Source: Candidatus Endomicrobiellum devescovinae (GTDB lineage Bacteria > Elusimicrobiota > Endomicrobiia > Endomicrobiales > Endomicrobiaceae). From it: a stretch of 40,182 nucleotides of DNA. Under the pieces are notes generated by a model, which was given only the letters and a program-made list of their open reading frames with translations, ran no database searches and had not been told where the DNA came from. The position numbers were made by a program, and so were the translations under genes. Positions 37,770 through 40,182 of the stretch are shown here, piece after piece (the stretch's first letter is position 1; each line of letters begins with the position of its first letter). The stretch lies in the NCBI GenBank assembly GCA_031267795.1, contig JAIRYK010000012.1, forward strand, positions 1-40,182, in the 5' to 3' direction.

Positions 37770-38792
37770 ATGAATATACTTGCTCTGGAAACATCTTGCG
37801 ATGAAACTTCCGCTTCAGTAGTTTCAAACGGAACAAAAGTAAAATCTATGGTTATTTCTTCTCAAATAAAAATACATGCCAAATATTTTGGCGTAGTTCC
37901 TGAACTTGCAAGTCGCGCCCACATAGAAAATATCAATCCTGTAATAGTGGAAACTTTAAAAAAAGCTGGAATATCTTTTTCCGATTTTTCAAAAAAAATA
38001 GATGCGATAGCTGTTACAGTAGGTCCAGGGCTTGCAGGTGCTTTACTTGTAGGCACAATAGCAGCAAAAGCAATGGCAAGCATTTACAAAAAACCTTTGA
38101 TACCAGTCAACCATTTGGAAGGGCATTTATACTCTGCTTTTATTGAAAATAAATCAATAAAACCTCCTTTTTTAAGCGTAATAATATCAGGAGGGCATAC
38201 AGAGATTATAATAATTGAAGATTTTGGAAGATATAAAATACTCGGTGGCACTAGAGACGATGCCGCTGGAGAAGCTTTTGATAAAGCCGCAAAAATGTTG
38301 GGCTTAGAATATCTCGGTGGACCCGTAATAGACAAAAGAGCGGAAAAAGGAAACTCTACTGCAATTAATTTTACAAGACCTTATTTAAAGGGAAGTTGGG
38401 ATTTTTCTTTTTCTGGTATAAAAACGGCTCTTCTGAACTATTTGAAAGCTAACCCAGTAAAGACCGAACAGCATTTAAACGATATTTGCGCTTCTTTCAG
38501 ACAAGCCATAGCAGAAACACTTTGTTTTAAAGCTTTTGAAGGAGCAAAAAAATTTGATTTAAAACAAATAGCATTAGGAGGAGGTGTAAGCGCAAATTCT
38601 CTTATACGGAGTATGTTCATACAAGAAGGTAAGAAAAACAAAATAAAAATATTTATACCCTCGCTTATTTATTGCACAGATAATGCCACAATGATAGGCT
38701 GTGCGGCATATTTGAAACAGAAAAAATGTGGGCTGAATTATAATAATCTTCAACTAAAATCCAACCCTTCTCTACCTTTAGAAAACTGGTAA
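37770..38792 (+). CDS. tsaD: tRNA N6-adenosine threonylcarbamoyltransferase TsaD
   Basis: TsaD makes the t6A modification at position 37 of ANN-decoding tRNAs, with TsaB, TsaC and TsaE. The 340-residue protein has the ASKHA fold: LETSCDETSASVV, VGPGLAGALLVG, metal-binding His115 and His119 in NHLEGHLYSAF, SGGHTEI, DDAAGEAFDKAAKMLGL, and the C-terminal TDNATMIG aspartate. Length and motifs are normal. It ends the envC-ctpA run; tsaB, tsaC and tsaE are not in the window. Confidence 0.97.
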   Translation: MNILALETSCDETSASVVSNGTKVKSMVISSQIKIHAKYFGVVPELASRAHIENINPVIVETLKKAGISFSDFSKKIDAIAVTVGPGLAGALLVGTIAAKAMASIYKKPLIPVNHLEGHLYSAFIENKSIKPPFLSVIISGGHTEIIIIEDFGRYKILGGTRDDAAGEAFDKAAKMLGLEYLGGPVIDKRAEKGNSTAINFTRPYLKGSWDFSFSGIKTALLNYLKANPVKTEQHLNDICASFRQAIAETLCFKAFEGAKKFDLKQIALGGGVSANSLIRSMFIQEGKKNKIKIFIPSLIYCTDNATMIGCAAYLKQKKCGLNYNNLQLKSNPSLPLENW

Positions 38793-38835
38793 TAACTGTT
38801 GCATATAAATTTATTTTTAAGTGAGGACTTATATT

Positions 38836-40182
38836 GTGACTATCAACAAATTAGTTAAGTGGGGCAAAGAAAGTCAAGAATTTTTTGAAAAGGCAGAAGA
38901 TAACAGTGTAGTTTTAGATTTGGTTATATCTTTTGGATGCGCAAGCCAAACAGGAGAAGGGTTTGAAGAGTTAGTAAACACAATAAATAGTGAAAATATA
39001 AAAAGAAAAGTAAAAAAAGTTGTTATAACAGACACATCTTATCTTTATAGGCATGACAATCCTGAATTTTCTAAATATTCAGATCCAAATGTTCCTACGG
39101 AATGGTACTTGAAAAATAAAGAAGCTATTGAAAAGCTAGAAGTTGAAAAAGAAGTTAAGAGTTGGGCAGTAGGGTTAAATACGAAAGAGTTTAAGAAATG
39201 GCATGATAAGATAAGAAGAGATTTTGAAGGAGATGAAAATGGTGTGGGCATAGTATTAGAGTTTAGAGATAAAGTAATGCAAGCGTCTTCTGTAGCGGCT
39301 TATAAAAATAATACTGATGTCAGAGGTTGTATAGAATTTATGCTAGAAGAGACAGCTTATACGTGTGCTTTTTTAGATGGTTCTGCTTTGGTATATCCTT
39401 CAAATCTTGCGGCTCCAATAGAAAACACCATTGAAAGGTACAATGTAAATGTCAAACATGTAGATTATAAAACTTCTAAACAGTCCCAGAGAAATTCGCA
39501 TAACAGTAATATTAATATGGAGTCTGTTGATAAAGAGATTATATCTTTTATGAAGAAGGATGCTAAAAATGTAAATTTCTTTGTTATAGATAAACATGGC
39601 AGCCATATTTATAAGAATTATGCTTTAAATAGAATTGTTGGAAATACAAATGCTAAACGGTTAAATCCTAAAACTTGGGAAATCAGTTGTGAAGTTATGA
39701 GAACTGGCAAGCAAATTATTACAGAAGAACAATCTCTTGAAGGAAATGATTACTTGACTATTAAGTCACCATTAGTAATAAATAGTAAAGTAGAAGGAGT
39801 AATAGGATTGGCGGTAGATATAACAGATAAGAAAAAGAGAGAATATGCAGAAAAGAAGAAAGAAGAGTTAGAGAATAAGCTAAAGATGAAAGAAGAACTA
39901 TATAATGTAGCAAGATATGTAGCACACGATCTAGCGCAGCCTGTGAATGTATTAAAAGGATATTTAGATTTAAATAAAAGTTTAAAAGAAGAAGAAAAGA
40001 AAATATTTGGGGAAGTGGCAAGAAGCATAGAAAATATAACAGATAGATTGTTAATTAAGTATGGAGGAGTTAAAGATATAAAAGAAAAGTCATATATATT
40101 TGTGAAGTGGTGTTTAGATAAAGTAGTTAAACAAATAAGAGAGCAAAAAAAGGAAATAGAAATAAAAAGAGTGTTTAATAGA
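38836..40182 (+). CDS. Cyclodipeptide synthase-like domain fused to PAS and histidine kinase (3' end cut by window)
   Basis: The frame is open from GTG 38836 (GTGAGGA site eight bases upstream) through the window end: 449 codons without a stop. Residues 1-210 resemble tRNA-dependent cyclodipeptide synthases: VISFGCASQTGEG (candidate catalytic Ser32), KVVITDTSYLYRHDN, EWYLKNKEAI, then a helix FRDKVMQASSVAAYK and IEFMLEETAY...ALVYPSN (Glu172, Tyr187). The Tyr178 of AlbC appears to be Phe168. Residues 245-335 are a PAS domain ending VDITDKKKRE, followed by a coiled linker and an HisKA-like box YVAHDLAQPVNVLKGYL with His364. There is no signal peptide or membrane helix, so it is cytoplasmic. The ATPase domain would lie beyond the window. 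The CDPS assignment is from motif order only. The last 222 bases are strikingly cytosine-poor. Confidence 0.6.
   Translation, partial: MTINKLVKWGKESQEFFEKAEDNSVVLDLVISFGCASQTGEGFEELVNTINSENIKRKVKKVVITDTSYLYRHDNPEFSKYSDPNVPTEWYLKNKEAIEKLEVEKEVKSWAVGLNTKEFKKWHDKIRRDFEGDENGVGIVLEFRDKVMQASSVAAYKNNTDVRGCIEFMLEETAYTCAFLDGSALVYPSNLAAPIENTIERYNVNVKHVDYKTSKQSQRNSHNSNINMESVDKEIISFMKKDAKNVNFFVIDKHGSHIYKNYALNRIVGNTNAKRLNPKTWEISCEVMRTGKQIITEEQSLEGNDYLTIKSPLVINSKVEGVIGLAVDITDKKKREYAEKKKEELENKLKMKEELYNVARYVAHDLAQPVNVLKGYLDLNKSLKEEEKKIFGEVARSIENITDRLLIKYGGVKDIKEKSYIFVKWCLDKVVKQIREQKKEIEIKRVFNR

Follow-up and report, generated by a model that had tools for sequence, protein, structure and literature searches.

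The stretch of DNA considered here (the window, 40,182 nucleotides, which is contig JAIRYK010000012.1 of assembly GCA_031267795.1, from Candidatus Endomicrobiellum devescovinae, a member of the Elusimicrobiota) ends within a gene for a putative sensor histidine kinase whose N-terminal domain resembles the cyclodipeptide synthases (CDPSs). This gene follows an open reading frame (ORF) that appears, from its sequence, to be tsaD-like. It starts at a GTG codon preceded by a probable ribosome-binding site and stays open up to the last base of the contig. Its 449 residues comprise the CDPS-like domain, a PAS/Cache-like sensor region and an H-box with a phosphoacceptor histidine (His364). An earlier note, made from the letters alone, had described a single frame joining these three parts, and the observation is confirmed. 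The kinase gene almost certainly carries a CDPS-fold domain.

A model of the N-terminal domain calculated with AlphaFold2 (AF2; predicted local distance difference test score, pLDDT, of 90) matches CDPSs by Foldseek and by VIA, and a profile search of the PDB with the same domain also matched CDPS structures. The modelled domain has the CDPS-type Rossmann (class-I synthetase-like) fold, which bears out the fold proposed in the earlier note; the NYH/AlbC-type label given there was wrong in detail, the domain being a divergent, XYP-like member of this fold. Its closest known counterparts are the XYP-type CDPSs from Fluoribacter dumoffii (5ocd), Nocardia brasiliensis (9i5m/5mlq) and Rickettsiella grylli (5mlp), from which it differs in sharing about 18% identity, in scoring below the family models, in having Phe for Tyr178 (AlbC numbering) and in its fusion to a kinase. 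That the domain has another class-I synthetase-like (HUP) fold and is unrelated to CDPSs is highly improbable, and its TyrRS-like version was rejected on Z score.

Residues were mapped onto CDPSs by HMMER alignments, which give equivalence by sequence, and active-site conservation was counted over 39 domains (14 from Endomicrobium and 25 alphaproteobacterial, after leaving out five stretches that duplicate other loci). One truncated row had been dropped from an early family alignment (A1), and 20 of 35 public loci were taken into a later one (A4). Ser32, equivalent to the nucleophile Ser37 of AlbC, is kept in all 38 rows that reach this position, Glu171 in all 39, and Glu172 (AlbC Glu182) in 36, the other three having Lys. 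Tyr187 (AlbC Tyr202) is found in 38 of the 39 rows and Pro188 (AlbC Pro203, typical of the XYP type) in every one. The residues that the earlier note had placed in the active site (Ser32, Glu172 and Tyr187) do align with catalytic residues, so that the domain agrees with CDPSs in fold and, at the sequence level, in residue equivalence. A basic stretch, IKRKVKKV, contains two lysines (Lys58 and Lys61) that are invariant across 21 rows.

Downstream of this domain, the window's own sensor-region hits are weak (Diacid_rec, E 0.005; PAS_4 and dCache_1 are not among them). In an alignment of related proteins (A7), PAS_4 was detected in nine of 17 segments and dCache_1 also in nine of 17, and the profile of this alignment matches the histidine kinase structures 3a0r and 4jas. 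His364 sits in the motif AHDLAQP, within a HisKA match of 22.4 bits (cut-off 26.9). By alignment and motif, full-length relatives are composed of a CDPS-like domain, a sensor region, an H-box and a receiver-like end, and the fusion to a sensor kinase recorded in the earlier note is supported. HATPase exceeds the Pfam cut-off in both fused relatives scanned (L045 and L048; L-numbers and C-numbers denote loci and contigs, respectively, in this analysis), and the window ends before this domain. Response_reg was found by Pfam in one of three proteins scanned (L048, the others being L045 and L147), and DD/D/K-like receiver motifs were recognized by eye in further relatives. Pfam found neither PAS nor HisKA at E 0.01 in the whole L045 and L048 proteins. 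On the Kyte-Doolittle scale, averaged over 19 residues, the window protein peaks at 1.13 and just one of 44 proteins rises above 1.6 (1.66), and because no membrane segment is evident the gene probably represents the start of a soluble, cytosolic sensor histidine kinase. The window-type domain also occurs as a standalone ORF of 226 codons (L121, 1417-2094, minus strand), divergent from an adjoining gene for a full-length fused kinase.

The same bacteria contain canonical CDPSs linked to PAS kinases. Matches to the Pfam CDPS profile (PF16715) were found in nine of 59 genomes of the window's family, all within its genus, and at the six genus loci with matches of at least 170 codons a PAS-bearing frame (by motif) adjoins the CDPS in every case, with a kinase motif in four. 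One of them (L141) belongs to the window's own genome and consists of a CDPS gene of 234 codons (E 3e-45) adjoining a PAS-PAS-HATPase gene of 510 codons, the pair being flanked by genes that resemble queD and queC/queE (named by eye). In the alphaproteobacterial order that includes RUG14145, PF16715 matched two of 49 genomes: in L147 a single frame of 747 codons contains CDPS (Pfam E 9e-58; NCBIfam tRNA_cyclodipep 7e-63), PAS_4 (1e-14) and HATPase (2.5e-17), and in L148 the CDPS gene lies directly 5' of a gene that reads, by motif, as PAS, kinase and receiver. L147 and L141 pass the cut-offs of PF16715 and NCBIfam TIGR04539, unlike the window domain. A further alphaproteobacterium, present only in the class sample (L149), also has a CDPS and PAS kinase pair; in that sample PF16715 matched eight of 385 genomes, five of them above the cut-off. 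There was no match among 398 genomes of the phylum sample, which is no proof of absence, as 14 control genomes were silent in these searches as well. Eight aligned canonical domains retain the equivalents of Ser37, Asn40, Tyr178, Glu182 and Tyr202. Since Pfam-grade CDPS genes are independently fused or adjacent to PAS kinases, synthase and kinase appear to belong together, and the CDPS-like domain is very probably part of the sensory input of the kinase.

Genes for a small PQ-loop (SemiSWEET-like) membrane protein adjoin several of these loci (Pfam was run on those of L143, L148 and L103), and this protein could carry the CDPS product; an ABC-transporter-like cluster recurs near four of 20 stretches. 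The surroundings of three distant alphaproteobacterial CDPS hits were also read (L138-L140 were left out), and these hits (L150 2497-3225, L151 2355-3212 and L152 3329-4108) lie, by eye, beside XRE-like regulators and not PAS kinases, which makes them a different kind of regulatory pairing.

In a set of 40 genomes, made up of the window's own plus 39 relatives, 11 carry the window-type domain, and all 11 belong to the window's genus. Among public species genomes, 28 of 35 loci are titled Endomicrobium, Endomicrobiellum or Endomicrobiia, and the other seven come from 'Holosporaceae' metagenome-assembled genomes (MAGs), Alphaproteobacteria PG1894_72 and RUG14145. The 'Holosporaceae' MAGs share sample codes with Endomicrobiellum MAGs, which points to termite guts as their source, and RUG in the name RUG14145 presumably stands for rumen. 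In the order of RUG14145, which includes four of the Holosporaceae genomes and has genomes of 0.5-1.6 million bases, 24 genomes out of 49 carry the domain, with 36 matches, none with stops and 27 in frames of at least 500 codons (ORFs were taken from 20 fetched stretches, giving 23 ORFs). In the class sample it was found in one of 385 genomes, the centre genome itself. Thirty pattern stretches checked in viral contigs yielded no confirmed relative and the plasmids and phages searched gave no match, and an origin in a mobile element was therefore rejected. The order of RUG14145 is probably UBA3830, a group of alphaproteobacteria of termites and ruminants that has been described as a gene donor to Endomicrobiellum, the Endomicrobium/Endomicrobiellum group including endosymbionts of termite-gut flagellates (PMC11257099, in the sections consulted).

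For the CDPS-like part, the ratio of non-synonymous to synonymous substitution rates (dN/dS) was 0.036, 0.070 and 0.066 in three alphaproteobacterial orthologue pairs, rough values given a dS of 1.05-1.26 (the third stretch includes the start of the PAS region), and 0.125-0.26 in four other pairs, L118/L119 giving no ratio. Between the window and L044 it was 0.14, averaged over their whole history. These low ratios suggest purifying selection.

Three types of N-terminus precede related kinases: A (that of the window), B (that of a kinase gene on C20, a further contig of the window's genome) and C (canonical CDPS). Type B, of about 270 residues and fused to PAS kinases, shows no variation across 13 rows in the motifs F-x-E-S-H, T-G-Y-L-S-R and Y-x-x-E-E. 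It occurs also in ten of the 49 alphaproteobacterial genomes of the order, although the match is weak in one of the ten. It gave no PDB hit of note, and hhalign returned 8-21% over a stretch ending in the E-E motif; the silence of hhalign says little, because a control pairing of the window type with canonical CDPSs fails too. Type B is possibly a third CDPS-like domain. In a tree built from the PAS region that immediately precedes the H-box (43 rows: 28 A, eight B and seven C; from 44 proteins, a single stray frame in which no H-box was found had been left out, and L119 was not entered), each N-terminal type forms one clade, with two changes, the minimum. In a tree of the kinase core (41 rows, with two long branches and four rows under half filled, and after dropping two more rows with fewer than 85 kinase residues), the N-terminal type requires eight changes versus two for the host group. 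As the PAS tree follows the type and the core tree the host, the N-terminus and the PAS region seem to have been inherited together and the core exchanged locally, so that the CDPS-like domain and the PAS region behave as one mobile input module on local kinase cores. In the tree of the N-terminal domain itself, Endomicrobium rows are scattered among alphaproteobacterial ones (seven changes, at least three forced by the starred branches), which points to several transfers of the domain between Endomicrobia and alphaproteobacterial symbionts.

The kinase core of the window is a near-copy of that of the type-B gene on C20, with 237 of the final 240 bases of the window equal, and the final 119 bases match the end of C20 exactly. 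Because this overlap has the size given by k119 in contig names of related MAGs, the break looks like the assembler halting at shared sequence. In the same genome, the end of L037 (C22) and the start of L033 (C1) have 119 bases in common inside another copy of the CDPS-like kinase, which is therefore probably one gene split by assembly; this copy shows a frame change near a poly-G run in its first part.

Table 1. Positions of the window gene, its parts and associated loci (positions refer to the window unless a locus or contig is named)
Feature	Position	Strand	Remarks
tsaD-like gene	37770..38792	+	ORF; kinase gene comes next
Probable ribosome-binding site GAGG	38823..38826	+	Precedes the GTG at 38836; read from the sequence
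Open frame of the kinase gene	GTG 38836 to last base 40182	+	449 residues; ends with the contig
CDPS-like domain	38836..39507	+	Residues 1-224; AF2 model, Foldseek and VIA matches, PDB profile hits, 39-row conservation
Ser32 codon	38929-38931	+	Within the CDPS-like domain, alongside Phe168, Glu171, Glu172, Tyr187 and Pro188
PAS/Cache-like sensor region	39568..39840	+	Residues about 245-335; PAS_4 and dCache_1 in segments of relatives
Kinase-core stretch shared with the C20 gene	39849..40182	+	91% by blastn
HisKA dimerisation/phosphoacceptor region	39907..40041	+	His364 (39925-39927); Pfam HisKA E 1.3e-4, below cut-off
CDPS and PAS-PAS kinase pair, window's genome	L141 2143-4363 = C23:198642-200862
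Small PQ-loop protein beside CDPS genes	L143 837-1154; L144 4992-5306; L148 2670-2948
Small PQ-loop protein beside fused genes	L103 7566-7865; also L109, L111, L113
Type B, Endomicrobium side	L032 1-1581	-	Strand and positions for L032; also L040/L159, L042/L164, L154-L157, L160, L161, L165
Type B, alphaproteobacterial	L173-L176

The explanation favoured here, to which a probability of about 0.5 can be given, is that the CDPS-like domain is the input module of a soluble kinase and that its use of aminoacyl-transfer RNA (aminoacyl-tRNA) feeds the adjoining PAS domain. The domain would bind aminoacyl-tRNA and load Ser32, a small product would be made (a cyclodipeptide, or an altered product given the Phe at the Tyr178 position), and the PAS domain would read it, so that the kinase output would report the supply of particular charged tRNAs or the level of the peptide. 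In the operon form, the complete CDPS is separate from the PAS kinase (with the PQ-loop protein at some loci) and a diffusible product would be the simplest link between them. As those proteins are separate and the CDPS retains the full catalytic set, a product is favoured, and catalysis by the fused domain as the source of the PAS signal is a tentative proposal, with odds slightly short of even.

Several observations weigh against this explanation. The AlbC Tyr178 position, Phe168 in the window, is Phe in 38 of the 39 rows and Tyr in one, so that the earlier note was right about this substitution, which is fixed in the family. S37, Y178, E182 and Y202 are almost strictly conserved among active CDPSs, and Tyr178 and Glu182 anchor the first substrate (PMC7566563, in the parts consulted). 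Given this replacement, catalysis may be lost or changed; since three of the four catalytic residues are kept and the change of the fourth is fixed across the family, it does not look like random decay. PF16715 gave no hit in the window domain and seven relatives, nor in L045 and L048, TIGR04539 gave none in the window and L003, and hhalign gives 0.1% between the window domain and the canonical CDPSs of these bacteria. Because both Tyr178 and the family cut-offs fail, the domain is not filed as a CDPS and is regarded as a CDPS-like relative that may act like one. Within the fused family, the sensor region is weakly recognizable as PAS. The co-inheritance of N-terminus and PAS region is partly to be expected, as the PAS region lies between the N-terminus and the core and recombination would favour the shared core, and the type-B rows in both trees are all from Endomicrobium. 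Finally, 19 of 48 Endomicrobium matches (aligned pieces, many of them ending at contig ends) have in-frame stops and just one is contained in a frame longer than 500 codons, so that the window copy itself may be on its way out.

The fixed Phe, with Ser, Glu and Tyr kept, would also suit a domain that makes no product and acts as an aminoacyl-tRNA binder (perhaps stopping at aminoacyl-Ser) that directly alters the kinase, which would then be a sensor of charged tRNA or starvation. The low dN/dS, the single chain (which allows direct coupling) and the invariant lysines of the basic stretch are in line with such a sensor. A dead enzyme working as a binder need not retain Ser, Glu and Tyr, however, and the separate operon CDPS, with its full catalytic set, fits a product better than direct contact; this alternative is considered rather unlikely. 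Similarly doubtful is the view that the gene in the window is a duplicate in decay, now without function, as could be read from the stops in Endomicrobium copies (most of which are fragments), from the L005 copy, which appears split by a frame change, and from a kinase end so similar to the one in a gene with a different N-terminus that it has probably been overwritten. The window frame is nevertheless fully open with a good start, its Ser32, Glu172 and Tyr187 are kept and its dN/dS versus L044 is low, and decay of this copy would have no bearing on the family as a whole. The domain could also make a compound for another use, for instance one directed at the host or a neighbour, with the kinase part regulating, or being regulated, on its own and the fusion tying just the expression or place of the two together. 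CDPS fusions to other partners are on record (PMC5816076), a role in the host cell has been suggested for the CDPSs spread among intracellular bacteria (PMC2922099, in the parts consulted), and the PQ-loop and ABC-transporter-like genes would be compatible with this reading. This is improbable, given that no tailoring enzyme was recognized by eye in the neighbour clusters common to at least two of the 20 stretches (23 ORFs) and that the PAS region follows the N-terminal type.

The arrangement described here has partial precedents. In 2010 every CDPS found was standalone (PMC2922099); fusions to P450, methyltransferase and ABC-transporter domains have been described since, resembling the window protein in having an N-terminal CDPS within a larger protein, and an isolated domain of one CDPS fusion was active (PMC5816076). 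Their partners serve tailoring or transport, and no kinase is mentioned in the parts of that paper examined. PAS is among the commonest non-biosynthetic domains near CDPSs, and a quorum-sensing role was suggested (PMC5767969, in the sections consulted), so that a cyclodipeptide signal had already been proposed for such neighbourhoods. That work reports a statistic over neighbouring ORFs, whereas here both domains belong to one polypeptide, the synthase-like domain is inherited along with PAS, and a second CDPS-like family, a divergent one, is involved. PAS histidine kinases (ArcB- and AtoS-like models rank with the best NCBIfam hits, though well under their cut-offs) share with the full-length relatives of the window protein an order of sensor region, H-box, HATPase and receiver-like end, and differ in lacking a CDPS-like input domain in front. 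Transfers of NTT and AroP between Endomicrobiaceae and the alphaproteobacterial orders UBA3830 and RUG11792 have been reported (PMC11257099), probably the same symbiont groups exchanging genes, but these are transporters, and the main text of that paper contains neither 'histidine kinase' nor 'cyclodipeptide'. A CDPS-kinase fusion was not found in the open-licence literature searched.

In its broadest form, put forward tentatively, the proposal is of an aminoacyl-tRNA-to-phosphorelay device, in which one protein would tap charged tRNAs and pass either the bound tRNA or a peptide of its own making to a PAS domain and kinase, the synthase-like domain and PAS forming a mobile cassette that two phyla of endosymbionts of protists would have exchanged in at least two versions (canonical and window type) and perhaps three. 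CDPSs are familiar as producers of secondary metabolites, and RelA and the T-box are other routes for reading tRNA charging. If the proposal is true, CDPSs would gain a sensory role, and tRNA charging would be connected to two-component signalling by a path other than RelA and the T-box. What function CDPSs have in intracellular bacteria, a long-standing question, would become testable in organisms with small genomes, where the synthase lies beside or inside its likely receptor, and the distribution of the family suggests that sensory input modules may pass between unrelated symbionts of gut protists.
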